Shown: one piece after another, positions 6,619-22,981 of the stretch
Numbering within the stretch: the first letter of the stretch is position 1
How the letters are laid out: every line of letters starts with the position of its first letter
NCBI GenBank assembly: GCA_003164045.1
Contig: PLRU01000059.1
Coordinates: 6,669-70,668 of the forward strand
Origin: Candidatus Lustribacter telmatis
GTDB lineage: Bacteria; Vulcanimicrobiota; Vulcanimicrobiia; Vulcanimicrobiales; Vulcanimicrobiaceae
DNA: 64,000 nt
Direction: 5' to 3'
Program-made: the position numbers and the translations under genes
The notes under the pieces: generated by a model
What the model was told of the DNA's origin: nothing
Databases searched by the model: none
The model's input: the letters and a program-made list of their open reading frames with translations, nothing else

Positions 6619-7269
6619 GTGCAGCGCCGCGCATTCGTCTTGGGCGCCGTGACGGTGCTGGCGCTCTCGCCGGCCGCACCGGCGTTCGCGCAAACGGCGC
6701 TCGCGCCGAGTCCGCTGCCGAGCCCGCAGTCGATTACGGATCTGGTCTCCGGCATGATCGAGGCGAGCCGGCTCGCGGCCGGTGACGTTTCGATCGTGCA
6801 CCAATATGGTGCGAACCTCGGCATGCCGAGTGCCGACATCGTCGCCTTCGAGATTCAGTACGAGCGGCTCTCCAGTTCGGCCAACGGATTGCTCGCGGCA
6901 CTCGCCTTCCAAATCGAAGGCAAGGACCCGGTGAACGAGGCGGCGCTGCGCGCGCAGGCCGCGACGATTCTGGCCAACACGAAAGCGCTCGATGATTCGC
7001 TCGCGGCGGTGCAAGCCGCCGCGCAAGCCCAGCGTCAGTCGACGGCGGGCACGCGCGGCGGATTCGATTTCGGCAAGTTTCTCTCGAGCGTCTTTCCGAT
7101 CATCAGCCCGATCGTGGCGATGCTCAGCAGCGGCGTCGACTTCAAGAAGAAGGTCGACGATATGGCCGTCTCCGACCGCACGTCACTGGCCACGCGCATT
7201 CGCGCGAACTACTGGCCGGATGTGAAGACCGCTACGGGGACGACGGGTGCGCAGCCTGCCGCAAAATAG
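6619..7269 (+). CDS. Exported hypothetical protein (Tat-like signal)
   Basis: N-terminus MQRRAFVLGAVTVLALSPAAPAFAQ; 3' end overlaps the following caspase gene by 23 nt. Confidence 0.6.
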   Translation: MQRRAFVLGAVTVLALSPAAPAFAQTALAPSPLPSPQSITDLVSGMIEASRLAAGDVSIVHQYGANLGMPSADIVAFEIQYERLSSSANGLLAALAFQIEGKDPVNEAALRAQAATILANTKALDDSLAAVQAAAQAQRQSTAGTRGGFDFGKFLSSVFPIISPIVAMLSSGVDFKKKVDDMAVSDRTSLATRIRANYWPDVKTATGTTGAQPAAK

Positions 7270-8884
7270 ACGCCGCATCGCTGCGGCGTTCGCAGCGCTG
7301 CTGCTGCTCTGTACCGCTCCGCTGCAGGTGCGCGCGCAGGCGTCGCGCTCGATCGCGCTCGTTATTGGCAACAGCAACTATCAGTATTGGGACCAGCTGC
7401 GCAACGCGCAGAACGACGCCCAACTCGTCGGCCAGACGCTGCAGAAACTCGGTTTCACGCTCGTCGGCGGCAAGGCTCTGCTCAATCTCGACCGGCCGGC
7501 GTTCGAGCGCGCGCTGCAAGATTTTGGCAAACAGAGTTCGGGCGCCGACGTAGCCGTGTTCTACTATGCCGGCCACGGCTTGCAAGTGAACGGTTCGAAT
7601 TATCTGGTCCCGACCGAAGCGAACCCGAGCAAGCCGTCGGACCTCGAAGTGCAGATGGTCTCGGCGTCGCTGGCGATTGCGGAGATGGAAGACGCCAACG
7701 TTCGCCTCAAGGTGATGATCCTCGATGCCTGCCGCGACAACCCCTACGCCCGCCGCGTCGGCGGCACGAACCGCGGCGGCAGTCTCGAAGGCTTGGCGCG
7801 GATGACGGCCCCCGAAGGCACGATCATCTCATTCGCAACGCAGCCCGACAACGTCGCGCAAGACGGTACCGGCGCCAACAGTCCCTATGCCGCCGCGCTC
7901 GCAGCGACGATCCCGGAATCGGGACTCGATATTTTCCAGATGTTCAACCGTGTCGGCGTGCGCGTGTCGCTGGACACGAAAAAAGCCCAGCAGCCGTGGT
8001 TCGATAGCTCGCCGATCGACGGCGACTTCTATTTCGCCGGTGCGGCCAAGGCGGCGCCCGGCGCCGATGCCCAAAACGCGGCCCTGCACGTAAAGAACGG
8101 CAACGACTTCTATAACGCCCACAACCTGGTCGACGCTGCCGTCGAGTATCACAAAGCGATGGACGCGAATCCGAATGATGCCGAAGCGCACTTCGGTTTG
8201 GGGCTCGTCTACGATGACGAGAACAGCACCGATGCGGCAATCGCACAATACAAACTGGCAATCGGGCTCGACCCGAAGTATGAGTACCCGCACTACAACT
8301 TGGGCCTCATCTACAAGAAGCATCAACAATATGACGCTGCGATCGTGGAATACAAAGCGGCGATAGCGCTCGATTCCAAGGATGCATCCGCGTACAACAA
8401 TATCGGAAACGCCTACGACGCGCTGCACAACGCGGATGCGGCTATCGACGCTTATCGCAAGGCAATCGCCGCCGACCCGAAGATGGCGTTGCCGCACAGC
8501 GGTCTCGCCGGTATGTACTACGATCAGCAGAAATACGATGCTGCCGAGGCGGAATACCGTGCCGCCATCGCCATCAACCCGTCGTACGGCGCCGCGCACA
8601 CGGGCCTCGGCAACATCTACTTAGTGCACGCGAAGTACGACGACGCCATCAACGAATACACGAAGGCTATCGGCTTCGATGCGAGCGACTCCCACGCGCA
8701 CAGCGGACTCGGTTACGTGTACTACGCGCAGAAGAGTTACGACGTTGCGGCCGCCGAACTGCGCACGGCAATCAGCCTCGAGCCCGGGTTTACCTCCGCC
8801 CACGCGAAGCTCGCCGCGACCTATCGCGCGCTCGGCAAGACGGACTTAGCCGCTGCGGAAGACCGTCTCGCGACCCAACCGTGA
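7247..8884 (+). CDS. Secreted caspase-like (peptidase C14) domain protein with C-terminal TPR repeats
   Basis: Signal peptide; SRSIALVIGNSNYQY, His motif FYYAGHG, Cys motif VMILDACRDNPYARR; about 7 tandem TPR-like units. Confidence 0.85.
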   Translation: MRSLPQNRRRIAAAFAALLLLCTAPLQVRAQASRSIALVIGNSNYQYWDQLRNAQNDAQLVGQTLQKLGFTLVGGKALLNLDRPAFERALQDFGKQSSGADVAVFYYAGHGLQVNGSNYLVPTEANPSKPSDLEVQMVSASLAIAEMEDANVRLKVMILDACRDNPYARRVGGTNRGGSLEGLARMTAPEGTIISFATQPDNVAQDGTGANSPYAAALAATIPESGLDIFQMFNRVGVRVSLDTKKAQQPWFDSSPIDGDFYFAGAAKAAPGADAQNAALHVKNGNDFYNAHNLVDAAVEYHKAMDANPNDAEAHFGLGLVYDDENSTDAAIAQYKLAIGLDPKYEYPHYNLGLIYKKHQQYDAAIVEYKAAIALDSKDASAYNNIGNAYDALHNADAAIDAYRKAIAADPKMALPHSGLAGMYYDQQKYDAAEAEYRAAIAINPSYGAAHTGLGNIYLVHAKYDDAINEYTKAIGFDASDSHAHSGLGYVYYAQKSYDVAAAELRTAISLEPGFTSAHAKLAATYRALGKTDLAAAEDRLATQP

Positions 8885-9549
8885 GCAAACCGGTTCGTGA
8901 AGAGGGCCCATTTACTCGTCGCTCAACCAGCGAACGTGTCGGACAGCTCATTCGGGAGCGCCTTGCAACCGGGGCACTTCGGCCGGGCGATCGCGTCGTC
9001 GAAGTTGATATCGCGCGAATGCTGGGCGTGAGTCGCAGTCCGGTGCGGGAGGCGCTGAGCCGGCTTGAGTTTGAGGGCGTGCTCGTGAGCGAACCGAATC
9101 GCGGTCGCTATGTGGCTCCGTTGGCCTCGGAACGCCTTCAACAACTCGTCGACTTTCGGCTCGCGCTTGAAGAACTCGCGGTTCGGAGTTTCGCGCGCTA
9201 CGCCGGCGAGGGCGATTTTCTGCAACTCCTTGCCGCCGTGCGGACGCTTCGTGCGACTGCGACATCAGAACTCAACAGCGCGATCCAGGCCGATCTTACC
9301 TTTCACCGGCTCATCGTTGCGCTGGCGAGAAATCGACCGCTGCAGTCGGCATACGCGGCGTTACTGAGTGAATTCCAACTATCGATACGCCTTACGACTC
9401 AGCACTATAGTTCGGTGGAGGAACTCGCGCTCGAGCACGAACGGCTGATCGAGGCGCTCCGCGAGCGACGCACGGATGACGCGGTCGCGCTAATGCGAAG
9501 CCACATTCTCCACGGACACGATCAGTTGCTTGCCGAGCTCGGCGGTTAA
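8881..9549 (+). CDS. GntR family transcriptional regulator (FCD subfamily)
   Basis: wHTH GALRPGDRVVEVDIARMLGVSRSPVREALSRLEFEGVLVSEPNRGRYVAP plus all-helical FCD-like C-terminus. Confidence 0.9.
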   Translation: MSKPVREEGPFTRRSTSERVGQLIRERLATGALRPGDRVVEVDIARMLGVSRSPVREALSRLEFEGVLVSEPNRGRYVAPLASERLQQLVDFRLALEELAVRSFARYAGEGDFLQLLAAVRTLRATATSELNSAIQADLTFHRLIVALARNRPLQSAYAALLSEFQLSIRLTTQHYSSVEELALEHERLIEALRERRTDDAVALMRSHILHGHDQLLAELGG

Positions 9550-10517
9550 GATTTCTCAATCAAGGTACGATCGAGGCGAGCCGAGAGGTGCTCGCCTGCG
9601 ATGACGGGTGCGAAGAGTGGTTCGTTGCTGTTTTGCGCCGAGGGAAGACAGGTGACCTCGGTTTCGCTGTTCGGTTCGCAGAAGAACGCGATCGAATATC
9701 GCGAGCGCTGCGCGCGCGCTCCGCTCGGGACATCGACGCGATGAGGGGTCGAACGGAAATCACAATTCGTCCATTGCTGCATCAGGTCACCGATGTTGAT
9801 CAGCACAGTGCCTGGAATCCACGGCGCGGTTAACCAACGTCCACCGGCCGAAAGAACTTCGAGCCCGGCGGTTGGATCCTGGAAAAGCAGGGTCAGCGTT
9901 CCGAAATCCGTATGCGATCCAACTCGCATTTGACCCGCTAACACGGCGTCGGATACTGGTGGATAATGTAGAAGCCGCAAGATGTTGTTCTGGCCGTGGC
10001 GTTCGACGAAATACGACTCCGGCAGCCGGAAGTTTATCGCAAATGTGCGGAGCACGTCGTTTGCAACGGCCGCACAGCGGGCATGGAACGTGGCGAAGTC
10101 GTCTACTAGAGCCTGTACGGCCGGTGCAAATGTCGGTTCGTCGCTGCGCGCGGACGCAAAGGCGGCTCGGTAGTAACCGTCGCCGCGGAAAAGATCGAAG
10201 GCTTCCTTGATGTCGCTTGGCGTTGACGAGTCTTCGTGCTCGCGACCCCGCGGAACGTATCCGCAGCGGAGGTCGGCGTTTGCGCGGCGCGCGCGTACCA
10301 ACGGCTTCTTCGCCGCGGCGGGAAGATCGAAGAACGTGGCCATACTTGCCAAGAGGTGTTCGACGTCGGCTTGCTTGATTTCGATGCCGCGCAAATAGAC
10401 GAAACCCAGCGTTCGAGCGATGGCACAGATGCGCGCCGAGACCGCGACACGGCTCGTCTCATTCCCGTGAGTGAACGCCGCAAAATCGACAATTGGGATA
10501 TCCGATTGGACGTTCAT
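9546..10517 (-). CDS. Isopenicillin N synthase-like Fe(II)/2OG oxygenase, paralog A
   Basis: IPIVDFAAF N-term; SHTDFGTLTLL (HxD), STPHRV (distal His), RYSIAFF (2OG-binding RxS). Confidence 0.9.
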   Translation of the reverse strand: MNVQSDIPIVDFAAFTHGNETSRVAVSARICAIARTLGFVYLRGIEIKQADVEHLLASMATFFDLPAAAKKPLVRARRANADLRCGYVPRGREHEDSSTPSDIKEAFDLFRGDGYYRAAFASARSDEPTFAPAVQALVDDFATFHARCAAVANDVLRTFAINFRLPESYFVERHGQNNILRLLHYPPVSDAVLAGQMRVGSHTDFGTLTLLFQDPTAGLEVLSAGGRWLTAPWIPGTVLINIGDLMQQWTNCDFRSTPHRVDVPSGARAQRSRYSIAFFCEPNSETEVTCLPSAQNSNEPLFAPVIAGEHLSARLDRTLIEKS

Positions 10518-10576
10518 GAGGATCCGGCCATCGGTCTACGTACGTGGCGCAGTCACGCCGTTCCCTCAAGAAATGC

Positions 10577-10590
10577 TGGACAAATGTCCA
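10577..10590. promoter_or_regulatory. Dyad TGGACA-AA-TGTCCA between divergent genes (candidate operator)
   Basis: Perfect 6-2-6 inverted repeat in the intergenic region between oxygenase A (-) and the TonB-dependent receptor (+). Confidence 0.35.
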
Positions 10591-10821
10591 CTACTCGCGT
10601 TACGCGCCGCCCGTTTTATCCAACGCGACGCATCGCGCGGCGCGCGACTTCGGGAATGTACTGATTTCGAACAAGTGCGGTAAATCTGCTGGTCGACCGT
10701 ACTTCCAAATGGCTAATGCGCCGGCAGACGGCGCGCCTTAACGTAGCAAGCACGGGTTGCTTGGCGTGCCACTCGCATGTGGCTTTTGGAGTTGTGCGTG
10801 TATTCGAACTGGCTTTCAGCC

Positions 10822-13602
10822 ATGCGAAATGGTTGTGGTGTGTTTGCTATTGGTCTCGGCTTGTATCTAGCCATGAGTAGTGCGCCGGTAGGTGCGGCGG
10901 AGGCTGGCGCGCCGGGCGACGGTGCAGCGACGTTGAGCGGCATCGTTCGCACGCAGGCAGGGGGAGTGGTCTCCGACGCTCGGGTCGATGCGAGCGGTCC
11001 GGTTCACGGCGCTGCGACGACCGATGGAGCCGGTGCATTTACGCTAACGCTCGCGCCGGGACTCTATCGTGTGGTTGTGTCCAAACCCGGATATCTGCCG
11101 GCAACATTGCGAGACGTTACGCTGGCCGCGGGCCAATCACAGGCGGTCTCGATCGCACTCGCGCAACCCGATCTGAGCTCGCTTCGGACGATCGGTCGGG
11201 TATCGGCGACCGGCCAGGCCGGTTCCTCGATCAACGTGGGTTCCGCGACCACGTCGTTTCTCGGCGCGCAGGCGTTCGCTTCGCTCGCAAATCCCCAAAT
11301 CAACGATGTCTTGCAGCACGTGCCGGACGTCAATATCGAACGTATGGGCAGCCAACCCGACACGGCAATTATCGTCGGGGGCGCTCAGCCGTATGAGACG
11401 CAATCCCTCATTGACGGCCATCCCGTTGCGCTCGGGCAATATGGCGTCTGGCTCAGTCAATATTTCCCGTCGTTCCTTGTCGGCGGCGCCGAGGTGCAGT
11501 CGGGGCCCGGGAACACGACGCCGTTTGCAAACATCGCCGTCGGCGGCACGGTCAATCTCCTCACACCGGCATTTACCAAACGGCAAACCGGCGAGTTGGT
11601 GGTCGGCACGGATAACTATGGCTCGCAGTACTCGAGCCTTTTGACGACCGGCTCGGTGGGCCGTGCGTCCTACGTCTTTGGCCTCGGTTACGGCAGCAAC
11701 AACGGTCCGTATTTCCAGAGCAATCACTGTTCCGTTACGCCGGACAATCCGGCCAATACGAATACGGCGGCTTCCGTCGGCATCATCCAATTTTGCGGCG
11801 ACGCGAGCGGATCGCTTTTCGAGCGCGGCGAGCTGTTCAAGGTGAAATACGATTTTTCCGATGCCACGTCATTTGAGGCGGGGTTCGTTGGTGCTCAAGG
11901 CGGCTACATTCCGCAGGGCATCTCGTACGGGGTCTATCAGGGTGTGACTACCGTAGTCGAATGTCTCCCCTCGCAACCGTTGGAATGCACGAACCCGGCC
12001 AACGCCGGATTGGTCGGCAAGTCCATCCCATCGTATGTGTGGTACCCCGGTGTGGCCGTGTACAATATGCAGCCGATCTTCGACGCACAGTTTCGCACGA
12101 CCATCGGCAACAACACATTGCTGCTTCGACCGTACGCCTCGAACATTCAGCCTGATTATATTGCGGGCGTCGGCGAGGGAGGCTATGCTCAATTCTATTC
12201 GCCCGTCGGTACGGTGCCATCGATATCGCCCGGCACGCCGATCCCCAACGGCGGAAATAGTCTGCCCGGCGGCGGGAATGCCTTCGAGCAGTTATGCACC
12301 GTCGGCTTCAACCCATACGGCTACCACCAGGTCAATAGTCCCATCAATACGATCGTCGTTACGAACGGGCAAGAAGAATGCTTTCAGGTGCCGTTCGTCC
12401 AGTACGAAATCGACAAGCTCTACGGGGGAACGGCGTCGTTCATTCATCCGATGGGCGACGGGTATCTCAACTTCACGTACGACACGCACGCGACCGACAC
12501 GTTCGCGTATTACAGCTCTCCGGCAAACATTGCGGTACCCGACACGACCGAACGCTATACGACGTTCTCGTTGACCGGCGAGGTCGCCGCGACGCGGAAT
12601 CTCTCGTTGAGCGCCGGCTTGTACAACACGATATGGAAACTGCTTGGGTCGCAAGCCGTGATCGACCAAACGACGCAACAGGCCTATTTGGTCGGCATTA
12701 CACGAACCCTGGCGCGCTTCGATCCGCATCTCGCGCTCGTGTTTCGCCCGGGCCGCAACGTGTCGTATCGGCTCTCGTACGGGACGTCGGAAACCTTCCC
12801 GTTTGCCGGACAGGTCAGCGGGCTGCCGTCGTATCAGCCGCCGGCCGCATCGTCGAACTATCAGGCATATCTGTTGCAGAAGAACCCGTACTTGAATCCC
12901 GAGCGCAGCGTCGCGTTCGACCTCGGCGCCGAAACACGGCTCCGTCGGGACATGACGGCCGGCCTCGATATCCAGGACACCACGATTCACGACGTCTTCG
13001 AACCGCTGACATTTGCTTCGGCTACTCCGAATACGACGGTCACGGAGCCCATCAACGTCGCGCAACTCCGTTTGCAATTGGCGACGCTGAAATTCGCGTA
13101 CGCGCCGCCCGTTGGGTTCGGGTTCAACCTCTCGGCCACGGCCGAACGGGCAATCGTCAACGGCATTCCGCCCTCTGTGTATGCGAATGGCCCGGCGCTG
13201 CCGGCCAATGCCGTTCAAATTTGCGGAAACGGCCAGGTGTATCCAGACAACCCGGTCTGCATTCCGTATCTCAAAGGGTACGGCCAGTTCAGCTATACCT
13301 GGCACAACGGGACGTTCGCGTCCCTCGGCGTCGACTACGAAGGCGTAAACAACAGTTACCTTCAGCCGCCGTTCGCACAGGTCGATGCCACCGTACGTAA
13401 GCCGATCACGCGATCGCTGGAGTTCCAAATCGCATTTCAGAACCTGCTCAATACGAATAACTTCTACAACCTGCCGTACTTCGGCCAGGGCGTGCCGTTG
13501 ATCGCCGGTTCGGGAAGTGGCTTAACCTCGGAACCGTCGACGTATGTCCCCGCGCCTCCACGTACCGTGCGAATTCAACTGCGTTACCATCTCGGACGCT
13601 GA
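10822..13602 (+). CDS. TonB-dependent receptor with N-terminal carboxypeptidase-regulatory-like domain
   Basis: Signal peptide from Met 10822; LSGIVRTQAGGVVSDARVDASG...TLAPGLYRVVVSKPGY; plug INDVLQHVPDVNIERMGSQPDTAIIVGGAQPYETQSLIDGHPV; beta-barrel ending in RTVRIQLRYHLGR. Confidence 0.85.
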   Translation: MRNGCGVFAIGLGLYLAMSSAPVGAAEAGAPGDGAATLSGIVRTQAGGVVSDARVDASGPVHGAATTDGAGAFTLTLAPGLYRVVVSKPGYLPATLRDVTLAAGQSQAVSIALAQPDLSSLRTIGRVSATGQAGSSINVGSATTSFLGAQAFASLANPQINDVLQHVPDVNIERMGSQPDTAIIVGGAQPYETQSLIDGHPVALGQYGVWLSQYFPSFLVGGAEVQSGPGNTTPFANIAVGGTVNLLTPAFTKRQTGELVVGTDNYGSQYSSLLTTGSVGRASYVFGLGYGSNNGPYFQSNHCSVTPDNPANTNTAASVGIIQFCGDASGSLFERGELFKVKYDFSDATSFEAGFVGAQGGYIPQGISYGVYQGVTTVVECLPSQPLECTNPANAGLVGKSIPSYVWYPGVAVYNMQPIFDAQFRTTIGNNTLLLRPYASNIQPDYIAGVGEGGYAQFYSPVGTVPSISPGTPIPNGGNSLPGGGNAFEQLCTVGFNPYGYHQVNSPINTIVVTNGQEECFQVPFVQYEIDKLYGGTASFIHPMGDGYLNFTYDTHATDTFAYYSSPANIAVPDTTERYTTFSLTGEVAATRNLSLSAGLYNTIWKLLGSQAVIDQTTQQAYLVGITRTLARFDPHLALVFRPGRNVSYRLSYGTSETFPFAGQVSGLPSYQPPAASSNYQAYLLQKNPYLNPERSVAFDLGAETRLRRDMTAGLDIQDTTIHDVFEPLTFASATPNTTVTEPINVAQLRLQLATLKFAYAPPVGFGFNLSATAERAIVNGIPPSVYANGPALPANAVQICGNGQVYPDNPVCIPYLKGYGQFSYTWHNGTFASLGVDYEGVNNSYLQPPFAQVDATVRKPITRSLEFQIAFQNLLNTNNFYNLPYFGQGVPLIAGSGSGLTSEPSTYVPAPPRTVRIQLRYHLGR

Positions 13603-13614
13603 GGGACGACCATC

Positions 13615-14595
13615 GTGCAGTCACACAGGTCTGAGATCCCGGTCATCGATCTCTCGCCGGCCCGGTGCGGATCGGCCGAGCTCGCGTCGCTCGCGCGTGA
13701 AATAGGAGCAGCCGCGCGGCAGATCGGGTTTTTCACGGTCGTCAATCATGGCATCCCGCCGGGCCTCTGCGCTGACGTGCTCCGCGTGTCCCGTGCGTTT
13801 TTCGCCTTGCCCGAAGCGGCGAAGGAGCGCATCTCATTCGAACACTCCCCGCAATTCTATGGTTTTTCACCGATGGGCGCCGAGCAGCTCCATCCCGACC
13901 GTCCGGGCGATCTCAAAGAATCCTATAACATGGGTCGCGACCTCGCACCCGACGATCCCGATGTGATTGCGGGTAAGCCATTCCATGGACTAAATCTTTG
14001 GCCCGATGCCGCGGAGTTCCGCGAAACGTTGCTGACGTACTTTACTGCTGCGCACGCCCTTTGCGTCGCGCTGCACCGCGCGGTTGCGATCGATCTTGGC
14101 GTCGAACCTAATTTCTTCGACGCGAAACTCGATCGCACGCTGGGCGTGCTGCGTCTGCTGCATTACCCGCCGCATCGGGGCCATTTCGATGACGTTCTTT
14201 ATGGAGCTGCGCCGCACACGGACTACGGCAACATCACACTGCTCATGCAAGACGACGCCGGCGGACTTGAAGTCCAATCGCGCGACGGTCACTGGGTCGC
14301 CGTTCCGCCGGTTACCGGCGCGCTCGTATGCAATATCGGCGATGCTTTGATGCGCTGGAGCAACGACACCTATATCTCGACCCCGCATCGTGTGGTAAAT
14401 AGATCCGGTCGCGAGCGTTACTCGGTGGCGTTCTTTGGAGATCCGAACGGTGACGCCACGATCGAGTGCCTGCCGCAATGCAGCTCGGTCGAGCGCCCGC
14501 CGAAGTATGCACCGATCGACTATGCCGACTACCTCGCGCGCAGATTGGCAGAAACCTACCAGAGGCCACTCGCGACCGGCGTCGAGACGGTGTAA
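13615..14595 (+). CDS. Isopenicillin N synthase-like Fe(II)/2OG oxygenase, paralog B
   Basis: EIPVIDLSPAR; IGFFTVVNHGIP; PHTDYGNITLL; STPHRVVN; RYSVAFF. Confidence 0.9.
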   Translation: MQSHRSEIPVIDLSPARCGSAELASLAREIGAAARQIGFFTVVNHGIPPGLCADVLRVSRAFFALPEAAKERISFEHSPQFYGFSPMGAEQLHPDRPGDLKESYNMGRDLAPDDPDVIAGKPFHGLNLWPDAAEFRETLLTYFTAAHALCVALHRAVAIDLGVEPNFFDAKLDRTLGVLRLLHYPPHRGHFDDVLYGAAPHTDYGNITLLMQDDAGGLEVQSRDGHWVAVPPVTGALVCNIGDALMRWSNDTYISTPHRVVNRSGRERYSVAFFGDPNGDATIECLPQCSSVERPPKYAPIDYADYLARRLAETYQRPLATGVETV

Positions 14596-14602
14596 GGTGC
14601 CG

Positions 14603-15952
14603 ATGAAATTACGGGTTGAGGAGAGCGGAGCGTCCGTAGTCGCGCAGGGTGTCAGCGCAGAGCATCAGTCGATGCCGCTCGAGCATGTGTTCTGGAGCCA
14701 CTTCTCGCGGAACCTCGGCTCATCGGGTTGGGTGATCGGCGTCCTTGCCGCAGCGCTGGGTTTGGGCTTCTGGTGGGGGCTGGCAGCGATCCTAGTCGGA
14801 AATGTCCTGGGCTCGATCCCCGTTGCGTTCTGCGCGGTGATGGGTCCGAAGACCGGCCTGACGCAGATGGAGGACTCTCGCTTCGCGTTCGGCCAAGCGG
14901 GCACGCGGCTTCCGTCATTGATCAACTGGTTGTGTTGCGTGGGTTGGGACGCCGTCAACAACGTTCCATCGACCATTGCCTTAGTCGCGCTCGTCGCGAT
15001 GAGCGGATTCTCCGCGCCATTCTGGGCTGCGCTTGCGTTCTTAGCGACGCTCCAACTGATCGCTAGTATGTACGGACACGACGTCGTGCAACTGCTGCAG
15101 AAGTATTTGGGATATGCGCTCTTGGTGATTTTCGGAATCGTCGGGGCAATGGCCGTCGCGAAGGGCGGCAGCATATCGCCTCCGGCGCAGCCGGCAACAC
15201 TCGCGACTTTTCTACTCGCCGTCTCGCTGATCGCGAGCTACAACCTCGGCTGGGCGCCGTATGCCGCCGATTACACGCGATACCTACCGAAGGCGACGCC
15301 ATCGCACAAGATCTTCGGCTTGAGTTTCCTTGGGATGATCGTTTCGGGCATCGCGATCGAACTGTGCGGCTTTCTCACCGCCAGCAAGATTCCCGACACG
15401 TCTCCAACCGCACTCATCAAGAGTATCACCGACCTCACCGGCGGCTTTGCCCCGCTCGGCCTCTTCGCACTCGCGATCTCGTCCGTTGCCGTAAATTCGC
15501 AGAACGACAATACTGCCGCCTATAGTCTTATCTCGGCGGGCGTGAAGCTACCGCGGTGGGTTTCCGCCATCGTCACGGCCGGTCTCGGCTTTCTGCTTGC
15601 GGTCGTCGGCGCCGGACAATTTGCGAGCCTTTACTCAAACTATCTCGTCGTGCTCGTTTACTGGATTTCACCGTGGGTCGGAATCGTTCTCGCAGACTGG
15701 TGGCTTCACCGTAGCGGCGACACGCCATATGCTCGTGGCTGGGGAGCGGGTGCCACGATCTTCGTCGTCGTCACGTTACTGACGATCCTGCTATTTTCGT
15801 CGACATCGGCGTACACGGGTCCAGTGGCAAAGATGTTGGGCGGCACCGACATCGGCTATTTGGTCGGATTCTTTGCTGCGGCTGGAGCCTATCTCGTTTG
15901 GCGAATGCCGCGCGCCGCTTCGGCGACGATGGCCTATAAGGAGCTTCTATGA
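14603..15952 (+). CDS. NCS1 family nucleobase (purine/cytosine-type) permease
   Basis: GLGFWWGLAAILVGNVLGSIPVAFCAVMGPKTGLTQMEDSRFAFGQAGTRLPSLINWLCCVGWDAVNN and 10+ hydrophobic segments; ORF from 14435 is over-extended, ATG 14603 preferred. Confidence 0.85.
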   Translation: MKLRVEESGASVVAQGVSAEHQSMPLEHVFWSHFSRNLGSSGWVIGVLAAALGLGFWWGLAAILVGNVLGSIPVAFCAVMGPKTGLTQMEDSRFAFGQAGTRLPSLINWLCCVGWDAVNNVPSTIALVALVAMSGFSAPFWAALAFLATLQLIASMYGHDVVQLLQKYLGYALLVIFGIVGAMAVAKGGSISPPAQPATLATFLLAVSLIASYNLGWAPYAADYTRYLPKATPSHKIFGLSFLGMIVSGIAIELCGFLTASKIPDTSPTALIKSITDLTGGFAPLGLFALAISSVAVNSQNDNTAAYSLISAGVKLPRWVSAIVTAGLGFLLAVVGAGQFASLYSNYLVVLVYWISPWVGIVLADWWLHRSGDTPYARGWGAGATIFVVVTLLTILLFSSTSAYTGPVAKMLGGTDIGYLVGFFAAAGAYLVWRMPRAASATMAYKELL

Positions 15953-16917
15953 GTGTGGAATCCGAAATTCCCGTTATCGATTTCGCCGGCTTTAGCGCTA
16001 AGAGTTCGAGCCGGAAAAGCGAAATCGCGCTCCGGATTCGCGACGTGAGCGCAAAGCTGGGCTTCATTTACTTGTCTGGGACCGGGATCTCGCAAGAGTA
16101 CGTCGATCGCATGTTCGCGCAATCGAGCGCATTCTTCAATCTTCCGGAAGCGCAGAAGGACGCGCTGTTTGAGGCGCACCGCGTAAACGCCGACTTGGAG
16201 TGCGGTTACGTGCCGCGGGGCCGGGAGCATGAAGACGCGCAGGCGCCGAGCGATATCAAGGAAGCATTCGACATTTTTCAGCGAGAGGGGTACATTCGCG
16301 TGGCCTTTCCTCGCACCACGGACGATGCGAGCGTACCGGAAACGATCATGCCGTTCGTTGAAGCTTTCGGCTCATTTCACACGCTCTGCGCGAGCGTCGC
16401 AAACGACGTACTCCGGGCTTTCGCTATCGGTTTCGAACTGCCGGAAACGTACTTTGTGACCCGCCATGGCAAAAACAGCACGCTGCGGTTGCTGCACTAT
16501 CCGCCGGTTACGACCGCCGCGCTCGACGGTCAAATGCGTGTCGGCTCGCACACGGATTTTGGCACCATGACCTTGCTCTTTCAGGATCCGAGCGGCGGAC
16601 TCGAGGTCCTCTCCGCGGATGGGCGGTGGTTGCGCGCTCCCTCGATTCCCGGCACGGTCCTGATCAACATCGGCGATTTGATGCAACAATGGACCAATCT
16701 CGAATTTCGTTCGACGCAGCATCGCGTTGCGATTCCGACCGACGCAAGCATCGGGCGCTCGCGCTTCTCGATCGCCTTTTTCTGCGAACCAAACAACGAG
16801 ACCGAAGTCGCGTGCCTGCGGGGCGCGAACAACAGCGAACGGCCACTATTCGAACCGGTATTTGCCGGCGATTATCTGCGCGGCCGGCTCAACAGCACCC
16901 TCATCGCGCGAGCATAG
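15949..16917 (+). CDS. Isopenicillin N synthase-like Fe(II)/2OG oxygenase, paralog C
   Basis: EIPVIDFAGF; GYVPRGREHEDAQAPSDIKEAFDIF; SHTDFGTMTLLFQD; STQHRV; RFSIAFF; close paralog of A; ATGA overlap with the permease. Confidence 0.9.
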   Translation: MSVESEIPVIDFAGFSAKSSSRKSEIALRIRDVSAKLGFIYLSGTGISQEYVDRMFAQSSAFFNLPEAQKDALFEAHRVNADLECGYVPRGREHEDAQAPSDIKEAFDIFQREGYIRVAFPRTTDDASVPETIMPFVEAFGSFHTLCASVANDVLRAFAIGFELPETYFVTRHGKNSTLRLLHYPPVTTAALDGQMRVGSHTDFGTMTLLFQDPSGGLEVLSADGRWLRAPSIPGTVLINIGDLMQQWTNLEFRSTQHRVAIPTDASIGRSRFSIAFFCEPNNETEVACLRGANNSERPLFEPVFAGDYLRGRLNSTLIARA

Positions 16918-16919
16918 CG

Positions 16920-18203
16920 ATGCTCGACTTGGTCGTGCGCGGAGCGAACCTTCCAGATGGGCGCAACGGGTATGACATCGGCGTCATCGGCGGGAAGATC
17001 GTCGAGATCGCTCCGCAACTCGCGGCACCCGCGGCTCGCGAAATCGACGCGCGCGGTCGGCTAGTGACGCCTCCGTTCGTCGATAGCCACTTTCACATGG
17101 ATGCGACGCTCAGCGTCGGCCGGCCGCGTTTCAATGAATCAGGTACGTTGCTCGAAGGCATCGCGATCTGGGCCGAACAGAAGCCGCTTTTGACGGCGGA
17201 AGACGTTCGCGAACGGGCGCTGGAGCTCTGCCGCTGGGCGATAGCGCGCGGAAACCTCGCGATTCGCACGCACGTCGATATTTGCGATGACCGGCTACTG
17301 GCGGTCGATGCGTTGCTCGACGTCCGGGAAACGATGGCGCCGTACATCGATCTGCAACTCGTCGCATTTCCACAAGACGGATTTCTGCGCGATGCCAGCG
17401 CGCGCGTCAATTTGTTGCGAGCGCTCGACCGCGGCGTAGACGTCGTCGGCGGAATTCCCCACTTCGAGCGTACGATGGCGGACGGCGCGGCGTCGGTCCG
17501 CGAACTGTGCGAAATCGCCGCGAAGCGTGGATTGCTCGTAGACATGCACTGCGACGAGACCGATGACCCCCTTTCCCGGCACGTTGAGACGCTGGCGGCC
17601 GAAACGATGCGGCTTGGCCTTCACGGGCGCGTAACGGGATCTCACCTCACCTCGATGCATAGTATGGACAACTATTATGTTAGCAAGCTGCTGCCGCTGA
17701 TGCTCGAGGCTGGTGTGCACGCCGTCGCCAACCCGCTGATCAACATCGTAATCCAAGGACGTCACGACACGTATCCGAAGCGTCGCGGGATGACACGCGT
17801 CAGCGAAATGGCGGCGATCGGTATCAACGTCTCATTCGGCCACGACTGCGTCATGGATCCATGGTACAGCTTGGGCTCTCACGATATGCTTGAGGTGGCC
17901 CACATGGCCGTGCACGTCGGCCAGTTGACCGGTCGCGAGGAGATGCGCGGAGCGTTTATGAGCGTGACTGCGAACGGAGCGCGCACGCTCGGTCTAGCCG
18001 GCTACGGGTTGGAAGTCGGAAAGAATGCCGATCTAGTCGTCTTGCAAGCGGCCGACCCGATCGAAGCGATTCGTTTGCGAGCCAACCGCCTATGTGTGAT
18101 TCGTCGCGGCAACGTCATCGCCGAGTCGCCCGCGGTTGAGTCGCAGATCTTTATCGGAGACCGCGCGCGGCGCGTGGACTTCGGCGCGGGCGCTCAGTCG
18201 TAG
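16920..18203 (+). CDS. CodA-like cytosine deaminase family amidohydrolase (possible 5-substituted-cytosine deaminase)
   Basis: VDSHFHMDATLSVGRPRFNESGTLLEGIAIWAEQKPLLT, VAFPQDG, DMHCDETDD, SHLTSMHSMDNYY, INVSFGHDCVMDPWYSLG align along the length with E. coli CodA; start ATG 16920, not the 16626 ORF start. Confidence 0.85.
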   Translation: MLDLVVRGANLPDGRNGYDIGVIGGKIVEIAPQLAAPAAREIDARGRLVTPPFVDSHFHMDATLSVGRPRFNESGTLLEGIAIWAEQKPLLTAEDVRERALELCRWAIARGNLAIRTHVDICDDRLLAVDALLDVRETMAPYIDLQLVAFPQDGFLRDASARVNLLRALDRGVDVVGGIPHFERTMADGAASVRELCEIAAKRGLLVDMHCDETDDPLSRHVETLAAETMRLGLHGRVTGSHLTSMHSMDNYYVSKLLPLMLEAGVHAVANPLINIVIQGRHDTYPKRRGMTRVSEMAAIGINVSFGHDCVMDPWYSLGSHDMLEVAHMAVHVGQLTGREEMRGAFMSVTANGARTLGLAGYGLEVGKNADLVVLQAADPIEAIRLRANRLCVIRRGNVIAESPAVESQIFIGDRARRVDFGAGAQS

Positions 18204-19114
18204 CCCGATTTGAAGCGCGAGCGAGCGAAATCCCCAAAGAGAATCGGCGCGTGTTTCGCCGGGCGGTCCGGACCTTCACACGACGGTAGGCACGATACGA
18301 CGGCATCGCCGTGGACATCTCCGAAGAGAGCGACCGAGTGCCGATCGCGCCCGGTGTCGTTGAACACGCGATGCGGCGTAGATACATAGGTATCGTTGCT
18401 CCACCGCATCAAGCAGTCTCCGATGTTGCACATCAATGCGTCCGCTCGCACTTCGGTTGGGATCCAGTTCCCTTCCCGGGTCCGTAACTCGAGGCCCTGG
18501 TTGTCCTGCGCCAACAGCGTGAGGTTTCCGAAATCGGTATGCGGCCGAATGCCCCAACCATCTCGTCCTTTGGGATGAGGCGGATAGTGCAGCATCCGCA
18601 GATTCACCATGCGGGGAAAGAACGGTTTGAAATAGTCGCTGTCGGCTCCGAGGTCGACCGCAATCGCCTGATGGAGTCGGATGATGAGTTCGGCGCCGCG
18701 GTCGTAGTACTCGGTCAAGCTCTCGCGAAAGCCCGCTAGATCGGGCCAGCGACGCGGCGCAAAGATCGACTTACCGGCGAGCAGATCCGGGTCGTCGGCC
18801 GAGATCTCCGGGCCGATGTCGAACGCTTCGTGCGGTTCGCCATTCTCCCGGTCAAGCCGCGTATAGCCGCAGAAATAGCTTTCTATCGCAACGCGCTCCT
18901 TCGCCTCGAGCGGCATCGCGAAAAAACGTTGGGCTTCGCGGATGACTTCCGCGACGTTCCGTTCGAGGCCGTGGTTTACGATCGAAAAGAATCCTATCGA
19001 TCGTGACGCAGCACCGATCTGACGACCGACGTCTTCGAGATCGGAGCGTTTGCCGGAGCTGAGACCGCCGACGTCGATGGTCGGAACCTGGTGGGCGGAG
19101 ACGAGGACATCCAC
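18194..19114 (-). CDS. Isopenicillin N synthase-like Fe(II)/2OG oxygenase, paralog D
   Basis: VPTIDVGGLS; IGFFSIVNHGLE; PHTDFGNLTLLAQD; STPHRVFN; RHSVALF; GTG start at 19114. Confidence 0.85.
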   Translation of the reverse strand: MDVLVSAHQVPTIDVGGLSSGKRSDLEDVGRQIGAASRSIGFFSIVNHGLERNVAEVIREAQRFFAMPLEAKERVAIESYFCGYTRLDRENGEPHEAFDIGPEISADDPDLLAGKSIFAPRRWPDLAGFRESLTEYYDRGAELIIRLHQAIAVDLGADSDYFKPFFPRMVNLRMLHYPPHPKGRDGWGIRPHTDFGNLTLLAQDNQGLELRTREGNWIPTEVRADALMCNIGDCLMRWSNDTYVSTPHRVFNDTGRDRHSVALFGDVHGDAVVSCLPSCEGPDRPAKHAPILFGDFARSRFKSGYD

Positions 19115-19298
19115 GTGGCTTCCTCCGGGTGAAAGCGCTTCTCGGCGACGCTCTTTTCCGCTACTATAAGCGGCGCGTTGCACGCCGCGCAAGCACTTTC
19201 CGGGATGTTTTTCCGGCGGACAATTGCGGTGCAGCGGAAGCGAAACAACTTGTTCTTTTGGACAATGCTACAACGAGCTTCGCGGGCTATACTAGGGT

Positions 19299-20933
19299 GT
19301 GAACCTCGGTCGTCTGGGTATTGTGCTCGCAGCGCTGCTGCTTACATCGAGTTGCGCGAAAGCGGGACTGTCGGCCGAAACCGGACGCCATCCGTGGACG
19401 CAACCGCATGTACTGCGGATCGTCGACAGCGAAGAACCGGATTCGCTCAACCCGATCGTCGGATACGCGCAGACCGACGTGCACGTCTCGATGTTCTGGG
19501 CCGGATATCTGTTCAATTGGAGCGACGGCAACCGCTTCGTTCCCGAGCTTGCTACGGTTCTTCCGACGCTTGCCAACCACGGGGTGTCGGCAGATGGCAG
19601 AACGATCACCTACCATCTGCGCCGCGGCGTCAAGTGGCAAGACGGCGCGCCGTTCAGTGCTGACGACGTCATCTTTACGTACCGCGCCGTGATGAATCCA
19701 AAGAACGCGGTGCAATCGCGTAGCGGCTACGAGCTGATCACTCGCATCGATAAAATCGACGACGCGACGATCGTCATTCACTTGAAGCGCCCATGGGCGC
19801 CGTTCGTCGCGACGTTCTTCACGATGTCGGCCGAGACGTATCCCGTACTTCCCGCGCACCTGCTCGCTCGCTATCCGGATATCAATCGCATCGCATACAA
19901 CGAGCGGCCGATCGGTACGGGACCCTTCAAGTTCGTGAAATGGGATCATGGCCAACAGATCCGTTTCGTCGCCAATTCAAACTACTGGCGAGGCCGGCCG
20001 AAACTCGATGAAGTCGACTACCAGATCGTCCCGAACGAGAACACGATTCTGACGATGCTCCGGACACATGAGGCGGACCTAGAGTTAGGCGCGTCCCAGT
20101 CGCTGATCGCTTCGTATCAACGCATCGAAGGCGTCCGCGTCGAGCTCACGCCCGACAACCAGTACGTCTTTTACGACTTCAACTTGGCGAATCCGATCTT
20201 AGCCGATCTGCGGGTTCGGCAAGCGCTGGTCTTGGCGACCGATCGGCAAGCCCTAATCGCCAACGTGACGCATGGCGTGCAGATCGCGGGCGAAGGGGAT
20301 CAGGAGCCCTATCTTGGTTGGAGCGATGCGAAGATTCCGTTGACGCCCTACGATCCCGCCCGTGCGCGTGCGATCCTGGATGCCGATGGTTGGCGCGTGG
20401 CAGCCGACGGCATCCGCAGGAAGAACGGCCGACGCCTTGCGCTGACGATGGCCTATCAGACCGGGACCGTCGCCGCAGCCAGCAGCGTGCTCCTCACGCA
20501 GCGGTGGTGGTACGAAATCGGCGTCGATCTCATGATCAAGGACTATCTGGCGCCGGTCTTCGGCGGCAGCTACAATGCTGGCGGCATCCTGTTAACGGGT
20601 AAGTGGGACGTGGCCCTGACCCGCTGGTATAACGGCGTCGATCCGGACGACTCGATCCTCTATCGCTGCGATCAATTTCCGCCGCAGGGCTGGAACATTT
20701 CGCGTTTCTGCGATCCGCGTGTGGAAGCTGCCGAAGACGAGGCGATCGCTTCGAACGACGTCCGAACCCGAGCGCGGGCCTACGGCACGATCGCGTCGCT
20801 CCTGGTAGCCGAACGTCCGTTCGAGACGTTATGGTTCGTGCGGAACGTGAACGTTTACAACAGCGATTTGAAGAATTTTCGCCCCGCTCATGCAGTCACG
20901 GAAATCTGGAATCCCTGGCAGCTTGATATCTAA
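19299..20933 (+). CDS. ABC transporter substrate-binding protein, family 5 (peptide/DppA-OppA type)
   Basis: Lipoprotein-like N-term LLLTSSCAK; VDSEEPDSLNPIVGYAQTD, TYHLRRGVKWQDGAPFSADDVIFTYRAVMNP, GTGPFKFVKWDHGQQIRFVANSNYWRG. Confidence 0.9.
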   Translation: MNLGRLGIVLAALLLTSSCAKAGLSAETGRHPWTQPHVLRIVDSEEPDSLNPIVGYAQTDVHVSMFWAGYLFNWSDGNRFVPELATVLPTLANHGVSADGRTITYHLRRGVKWQDGAPFSADDVIFTYRAVMNPKNAVQSRSGYELITRIDKIDDATIVIHLKRPWAPFVATFFTMSAETYPVLPAHLLARYPDINRIAYNERPIGTGPFKFVKWDHGQQIRFVANSNYWRGRPKLDEVDYQIVPNENTILTMLRTHEADLELGASQSLIASYQRIEGVRVELTPDNQYVFYDFNLANPILADLRVRQALVLATDRQALIANVTHGVQIAGEGDQEPYLGWSDAKIPLTPYDPARARAILDADGWRVAADGIRRKNGRRLALTMAYQTGTVAAASSVLLTQRWWYEIGVDLMIKDYLAPVFGGSYNAGGILLTGKWDVALTRWYNGVDPDDSILYRCDQFPPQGWNISRFCDPRVEAAEDEAIASNDVRTRARAYGTIASLLVAERPFETLWFVRNVNVYNSDLKNFRPAHAVTEIWNPWQLDI

Positions 20934-21407: not shown

Positions 21408-22064
21408 CTAATCCGGCTCGGACAGCCAAGCTCGAAAGATGTCATACTCTCGGGCAAGCGCGGACTGCGCCGCGACGCCGTCGTGGAGCTTACACGCGTG
21501 CAGCAACTGTTTGTGCACGGCCACCGTGCGCTGCAGGAAGTCGCTGAGGTGAGCGCCGCCCGGTTCATCGTAGCGCAGGCGCCATTTATTGACGGTCTCC
21601 AGCATGCGCGGGCGTCCGGCCGGGGCCAGGAGCAGTGTGTGAAAATGCAGGTGTAAACCGCGTACGTCATCACCCCGGCGCGCGCGGCCGATGGCTTCGA
21701 GCGTTTCGCTCGCGCGGCGAACGTCGTCGAGCGATTGTCGAGGAAGCGCATGATCGAGCAATCGCGATTCGATGCATTCGCGCATTTCGACGATCTCGAG
21801 CAAGTCCGACGACGGCAGCGCGAGTGCGACCGTTGCGCCCTTGTTCGGAAGATAGACGATATAGCCGTCGGCTTCGAGCGTGCGCAGCGCTTCACGTACG
21901 GGAATCCGGCTAAGGCCGAATTGAGCGGCGAGTTCCGCTTGAACGAGCGTGCTGCCGGGCGGCAGTTCACCGCACTCGATCTGCGAGCGCAGAACATCGG
22001 CGATCTGATTCGCCGTGCCTTTGATGACCGGGTGCCGCTTTGCACCCGTGCTTGACGGCGTCAC
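21408..22064 (-). CDS. GntR family transcriptional regulator (FCD subfamily)
   Basis: NQIADVLRSQIECGELPPGSTLVQAELAAQFGLSRIPVREALRTLEADGYIVYLPNKGATVA; GTG 22064 is a more likely start than TTG 22100. Confidence 0.85.
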   Translation of the reverse strand: MTPSSTGAKRHPVIKGTANQIADVLRSQIECGELPPGSTLVQAELAAQFGLSRIPVREALRTLEADGYIVYLPNKGATVALALPSSDLLEIVEMRECIESRLLDHALPRQSLDDVRRASETLEAIGRARRGDDVRGLHLHFHTLLLAPAGRPRMLETVNKWRLRYDEPGGAHLSDFLQRTVAVHKQLLHACKLHDGVAAQSALAREYDIFRAWLSEPD

Positions 22065-22072
22065 CGCTTGAT

Positions 22073-22080
22073 TGTATACA
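22073..22080. promoter_or_regulatory. Palindrome TGTATACA: candidate shared -10 element and/or GntR operator
   Basis: Perfect 8-bp palindrome; reads TATACA 7-8 nt before the start codons on both strands. Confidence 0.5.
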
Positions 22081-22087
22081 TGTTTAC

Positions 22088-22981
22088 ATGACACGGTCAA
22101 TATGTCTGATGACGATTGCGGCGCTCGTGGCCTTCACTGCGGCCGGCGCAGGAGCTACCGACCGCGCTCCGCTGCCCATCGCCCATATTGCGTATCAACC
22201 GCGCGAACGGCTAATGGCGGTTTCCGTCCACATCACCGGGTATGAATCGCGCGCGCTTACGTTCGTCGTCGACACGGGTGCGCGGCACACCGTGATCGAT
22301 CGGGCGGTTGCGCACGCGCTGCGCGTGCGCGTCATTTCGGCCGACCGCATGGCCGGCGCCGGCAAAGGCACCGTGACAATGCAACATGCGGTTCCGCTAA
22401 CGTTCACGATCGGCAATGCGCGGCTCACCGTCACCGACCCGTGGATTCTCGATCTGAATCATCCGGAAATGGCCGGGCATCTCGACGGACTTCTCGGGGC
22501 GGACTTTTTCGCGAAGTACATCGTACGGATTGATCCGGTCGCACGGACGCTGGAGGTCTATCTTCCGGAAACAATTATCGACGATCGCGCAGGATCGGCA
22601 ATACCGCTCTACGATATCGACAACCGGCTCTTCGTCGATGCGAAACTCACCGTCGGCTCGACGATTCAAACCCATCGGGTACGCATCGATACGGGATCGG
22701 GCGATGCTCTCTCCGACGACATCGTCCGTTTGGCAAAATATCAAGTGCGGGCACGTCAGGGCGTCGGCCTTGGGCAATCGTACGTCGATGTGTCGGGACT
22801 GATCGATCGCGTGCAGCTCGGGCCGTACGAAATTTTCCGCTCCTGGGGCGCGTCGAACAGCCGCCCCGCGATGGGCATGGAATTACTGCGCCGGTTCACG
22901 TGCACCGTCGATGTGCCGCACGGCCTCTTACGCCTTCGCCCGAATGCTCGCTACCGCGATTCCGTGCCCGCCCCCCGATGA
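22088..22981 (+). CDS. Exported retropepsin-like aspartic protease
   Basis: Two aspartyl motifs FVVDTGARHTVID and RIDTGSGDALSD; signal peptide; ATG 22088. Confidence 0.75.
   Translation: MTRSICLMTIAALVAFTAAGAGATDRAPLPIAHIAYQPRERLMAVSVHITGYESRALTFVVDTGARHTVIDRAVAHALRVRVISADRMAGAGKGTVTMQHAVPLTFTIGNARLTVTDPWILDLNHPEMAGHLDGLLGADFFAKYIVRIDPVARTLEVYLPETIIDDRAGSAIPLYDIDNRLFVDAKLTVGSTIQTHRVRIDTGSGDALSDDIVRLAKYQVRARQGVGLGQSYVDVSGLIDRVQLGPYEIFRSWGASNSRPAMGMELLRRFTCTVDVPHGLLRLRPNARYRDSVPAPR

Follow-up and report, generated by a model that had tools for sequence, protein, structure and literature searches.

This locus raises the question of whether a cysteine at the specificity position of a CodA-like cytosine deaminase marks a 5-methylcytosine deaminase, as the sequence-only reading had proposed. 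Here, we analysed the window, meaning the whole stretch of 64,000 nucleotides from Candidatus Lustribacter telmatis, in which the question rests on a gene and one of its codons:

16920-18203, + strand: CodA-like aminohydrolase of the PRK07572/NF005748 subfamily, 427 amino acids (translation, Pfam, NCBIfam, PDB match, AlphaFold model).
17847-17849, + strand: TGC codon for Cys310, the equivalent of E. coli Asp314 (translation and alignment).

We found that the frame at 16920-18203 encodes the motif INVSFGHDCVMDPWYSLG, which contains Cys310; positions 17826-17864 span NVSFGHDCVMDPW, and the motif as first quoted begins at 17823. In a phmmer search against the PDB, residues 8-413 of the deaminase aligned with E. 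coli CodA (1k6w, PRK09230; 44% identity) with an E value of 1e-113, and Cys310 paired with Asp314 with no gaps around the motif, the pairing being anchored by D309=D313 and W315=W319. The replacement of Asp314 by Cys was thus verified by a gapless alignment, and the E. coli motif had been given correctly as INVCFGHDDVFDPWYPLG. It had also been claimed that the metal-binding Asp313 is kept, which agrees with the alignment of D309, and that the other CodA ligands are intact, which agrees with the presence of HFH (57/59), HCDE (H210/E213), H242, Q152, and F150. In E. coli numbering, all residues used as a test of the CodA family are retained, i.e., the ligands His61, His63, His214, and Asp313 and the catalytic Glu217, His246, and Gln156. 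The Pfam PF07969 match reached 188 bits. The two enzymes share the fold, all metal ligands, and the equivalents of Gln156, Glu217, His246, and Trp319, whereas Asp314 is exchanged for Cys and Phe316 for Met in the window protein.

A misread base or a decaying pseudogene as the source of Cys310 was ruled out by comparison with the nearest orthologue, which is present in a related genome (G103) and has 80% identity to the window gene. The differences between the two genes fall mainly at third codon positions (207, as compared to 63 at first and 45 at second positions), which indicates that the deaminase gene is under purifying selection. The G103 orthologue carries Ser at the 314 position, encoded by TCG. 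The deaminase gene was found in 2 of 117 genomes of the host's class. In the host genome, no CodA-type match besides the window gene appeared at E <= 1e-40, and a backup canonical CodA of the Asp type in the same genome was rejected on this ground.

Against NF005748/PRK07572, the deaminase scored 762.7 bits over residues 1-422 (NCBIfam, cut-off 438), while its score against the E. coli-type PRK09230/NF006685 was 445.1 bits, below the cut-off of 483; it therefore falls in an already curated subfamily, distinct from the one that contains E. coli CodA. Close relatives were collected from 80 loci in a genome scan and from six more in plasmids and a related genome, giving 86 neighbourhoods, and the census of position 314 covered 88 clade members, the window protein included. 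Cys occupied this position in 85 members and Ser, Gly, and Ala in one each, with Asp in none, and His61, His63, Phe154, Gln156, His214, Glu217, His246, Asp313, and Trp319 were invariant. The idea that Cys is unique to the window protein was rejected on these counts. Members of the subfamily such as Rhizobium etli codAc2 and an Azospirillum amidohydrolase are 64-73% identical to the window protein and have in common with it the Cys motif GHDCVMDPWY and the metal and pocket residues.

Judging from these sequences, Cys at position 314 is ordinary for the branch of this deaminase, and the protein adds a member to a known subfamily. To call residue 310 an Asp-to-Cys substitution is E. coli-centred, as Cys is the usual residue here throughout a wide branch made up mostly of proteobacteria. 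The meaning at the level of the residue is small, amounting to one more genome in a large branch of Cys-type cytosine deaminases. Outside the clade, Asp is found at position 314 in E. coli, Aeromonas, Photobacterium, and two lactobacilli, and Ser in one Klebsiella plasmid gene and two haloarchaea. The Klebsiella plasmid gene reads FAQDSIQDPWYP, is accompanied by codB, and belongs to a separate branch from the window protein. The support values of a quick tree became unreliable after re-rooting and were left unused. The Gly and Ala come from two Desulfobacterota relatives (L020 and L076) and are natural counterparts of the E. coli laboratory mutants D314G and D314A; the PDB contains the CodA mutants D314G, D314A, and D314S.

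Three bacterial enzymes without Asp314 were reportedly found by Hitchcock et al. in 2014 to deaminate 5-methylcytosine and 5-fluorocytosine. Exchange of this Asp for Ala in E. coli CodA leads to a gain of 5-methylcytosine activity, and the Klebsiella 5-methylcytosine deaminase has Ser at the equivalent site, numbered 315 there (PMC6186785). The Klebsiella pneumoniae enzyme, Kpn00632 (4R7W/4R85/4R88), has a fold in common with the window protein and likewise no Asp at 314, but it carries Ser where the window protein carries Cys, and the identity of only about 41-42% is a long distance, which weakens the residue argument for 5-methylcytosine. Our literature search returned no characterised Cys-type enzyme and no substrate preference for the Cys branch.

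An AlphaFold model of the deaminase, built with 25 relatives (mean pLDDT 85.6, pTM 0.88), folds closest to the E. coli CodA structures (TM 0.92-0.93), followed by the Klebsiella 5-methylcytosine deaminase 4R7W (TM 0.87). The geometry of the motif is left unsettled by the model alone, because the stretch 311-320 is of low confidence (mean 58). AtzC is the next neighbour by both fold and sequence, and we considered whether the protein could be AtzC-like, with triazines or other xenobiotics as substrates; we give this almost no weight, given an identity of only ~30% to AtzC as compared to ~44% to CodA, the high score against the cytosine deaminase subfamily, and no triazine genes recognised nearby.

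The deaminase gene is surrounded by the following genes:

8881-9549, + strand: probable GntR/FCD-type regulator (from sequence reading only).
9546-10517, - strand: 2OG1, a 2OG-Fe(II) dioxygenase (PF03171; thymine dioxygenase 5c3p, E 4e-48).
10777-13602, + strand: TonB-dependent receptor with a CarboxypepD_reg domain (PF13620, PF00593, PF07715), first gene of the co-directional run.
13615-14595, + strand: 2OG2, a 2OG-Fe(II) dioxygenase (PF14226/PF03171; best PDB match 9ovh, E 8e-68).
14603-15952, + strand: NCS1-family nucleobase permease (PF02133, 110.8 bits; alternative start ATG at 14672).
15949-16917, + strand: 2OG3, a 2OG-Fe(II) dioxygenase (PF03171/PF14226; 5c3p, E 4e-45).
18194-19192, - strand: 2OG4, a 2OG-Fe(II) dioxygenase (PF14226/PF03171; best PDB match 9ovh, E 1e-45; start may be internal).
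21408-22100, - strand: GntR/FCD-family regulator (PF00392, PF07729).

The TonB receptor, 2OG2, the NCS1 permease, 2OG3, and the deaminase form a tight co-directional run with gaps of 12, 7, -4, and 2 nt, so that 2OG3 overlaps the permease by 4 nt and ends 2 nt upstream of the deaminase. The run of five genes is flanked by 2OG1 and 2OG4, both on the minus strand, and 2OG4 is convergent with the deaminase with an overlap of 10 nt. The permease scored 113 bits against the NCBIfam ncs1 model, which is under the cut-off of that model. Elsewhere in the genome, another contig (C102, L128) encodes PreA and dihydropyrimidinase, both above curated cut-offs, together with a carbon-nitrogen hydrolase, a second NCS1 permease, and a 2OG gene. 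Because PreA, dihydropyrimidinase, and the carbon-nitrogen hydrolase are present, uracil or thymine could be catabolised. The same contig further carries a TonB receptor and an ABC importer.

We consider it probable, at a little under 60%, that the deaminase belongs to the PRK07572 branch of the CodA family and acts as a metal-dependent aminohydrolase on pyrimidine bases, with a C5 pocket predicted from its sequence to be open to 5-substituted cytosines. Bases would be taken up by way of the TonB receptor and NCS1 permease, as the neighbourhood suggests, and the deaminase would hydrolyse cytosine. The acidic residue beside pyrimidine C5 is replaced by the small neutral Cys, as throughout the branch, and with no Asp on the C5 side the enzyme may also take 5-substituted cytosines, e.g., 5-methylcytosine and 5-fluorocytosine. 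The resulting uracil or thymine could feed the reductive pyrimidine pathway on the other contig. We favour this explanation because of the gapless CodA alignment, the subfamily score, the fold match, and the absence of Asp in the 88 clade members, and also because an NCS1 permease lies in the tight operon, PreA and dihydropyrimidinase are in the genome, and the gene is the sole CodA-type match.

In our judgement, activity on 5-methylcytosine is plausible and more probable than its absence, and the chance that 5-methylcytosine is the main natural substrate is roughly one in three. Specificity for 5-methylcytosine cannot be read from residue 310 alone. Counting against the favoured explanation are Met at residue 316, where E. 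coli has Phe, and the clade members that lie beside uracil-catabolism genes. The original proposal of a 5-methylcytosine deaminase stands in so far as the loss of Asp314 is compatible with it (PMC6186785); its claim of specificity exceeds the evidence, since Cys is fixed clade-wide and often occurs near genes of uracil catabolism.

A plain cytosine deaminase for base scavenging, in which Cys reflects a neutral difference between lineages and 5-methylcytosine has no real role as a substrate, is possible but doubtful. Uracil-catabolism genes (URC1, URC4, and upp) are found in the locus of eleven relatives, Azospirillum and Cupriavidus among them, often together with a BMP/ABC importer, and this importer occurs in many more. 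The URC pathway is one for uracil rather than thymine, and because such genes adjoin, the conversion of cytosine to uracil is the simplest and a sufficient role in these relatives. Cys-type genes are also often near those of the dihydropyrimidine pathway. It agrees with scavenging that Cys is fixed in the clade whatever the neighbourhood and that Asp is confined to some members of the family, so that it need not be ancestral. However, a Cys enzyme blind to 5-methylcytosine would be unexpected when replacement of the Asp in E. coli CodA opens this activity (PMC6186785). The operon in the window is also without URC genes: while genes of PRK07572/NF005748 are mostly near a BMP/ABC importer and sometimes near URC genes, the window gene is accompanied by a TonB receptor, an NCS1 permease, and 2OG dioxygenases instead. 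The reading with an open C5 pocket raises the question of whether the whole Cys branch accepts 5-methylcytosine.

The less explained and more interesting part of the locus is its set of 2OG dioxygenases, whose linkage to nucleobase permeases and catabolic genes recurs in this lineage. Our most likely guess is that the four enzymes act on the same or related nucleobases. They could oxidise or dealkylate a modified base first, with the deaminase taking the product, e.g., 5-hydroxymethylated cytosine or a cytosine with another substituent at C5. We regard this as unlikely, even though four such genes surround the deaminase gene. Of the 9 NCS1 genes counted across three related genomes, 4 lie no more than about 7 kb from a 2OG gene, where the chance expectation is ~0.019 per NCS1 gene (P about 1e-5, or 5e-4 if an orthologous pair is counted once); the test was picked after the clusters had been seen, so this statistic describes rather than proves the linkage. 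A Cys-type CodA gene of Thiomonas (L077), 7 kb from a 2OG dioxygenase gene, lies beside PreA and dihydropyrimidinase, with NMT1/THI5-like binding proteins and a Rieske oxygenase in the same locus. Set against this, only Thiomonas and G103 carry a 2OG gene in the fetched flanks among the 86 related loci, so the dioxygenase is not needed for the enzyme, and 2OG as a constant partner of Cys-type CodA was rejected; few loci connect the dioxygenases with CodA itself.

A second genome of the same genus (G077:C129; L122 6160-12272 and 15288-18710) has a TonB receptor, 2OG, NCS1, and 2OG gene in the same tight order, followed by a Xan_ur permease, adenosine deaminase, and a polysaccharide-deacetylase-family gene read as PuuE-like. 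This module thus lies beside purine genes and without CodA, which also speaks against a modified pyrimidine as the common substrate of dioxygenases and deaminase. Our literature search found no paper on linkage of deaminase, 2OG, and permease genes, and plasmid searches with the 2OG and permease proteins returned few or no informative relatives. Islands with a 2OG dioxygenase, Rieske oxygenases, amidohydrolases, and NMT1/THI5-like ABC importers were observed in Thiomonas bhubaneswarensis (L077) and at L124, L125, and L127; the first was checked with Pfam and the other three were read by eye.

2OG1 and 2OG3 are 60% identical, and the fungal thymine dioxygenase is the nearest solved relative of both. 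We compared them with thymine-7-hydroxylase, NcT7H (5C3P; residues from PMC4787775), to which they show 36% identity. The metal triad, the 2OG-binding Arg, Arg190, Arg286, and Phe292 are kept, whereas Asn87 is replaced by Arg or Glu, Glu122 by Asp, Asn294 by Glu, and Tyr217 by Phe, so that the residues making hydrogen bonds to the substrate (Asn87, Glu122, and Asn294) are not matched. The retained features, including Phe in place of Tyr217, are equally present in the other window 2OG proteins. Every one of those compared has Arg190 and Phe292; because these two residues do not discriminate, thymine oxidation cannot be inferred for 2OG1 and 2OG3. The use of these residues as proof of function was rejected, as Arg190 and Phe292 are family-wide and Asn87 is lost. 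It is improbable that the operon is a bacterial 5-methylpyrimidine route, in which 5-methylcytosine would be imported and deaminated to thymine and the methyl group oxidised by thymine-dioxygenase-like 2OG enzymes. If true, such a route would parallel in bacteria the thymine salvage pathway of fungi.

The four 2OG-Fe(II) dioxygenase genes lie within 10 kb (9546-19192) around the permease and the deaminase, and the whole genome has seven PF03171 matches. Beside the operon, an extracellular solute-binding protein of the SBP_bac_5 type is encoded at 19299-20933, with no matching permease genes recognised adjoining it. On the other side, the product of 7247-8884 was read by eye as a caspase-like domain with TPR-type repeats behind it.
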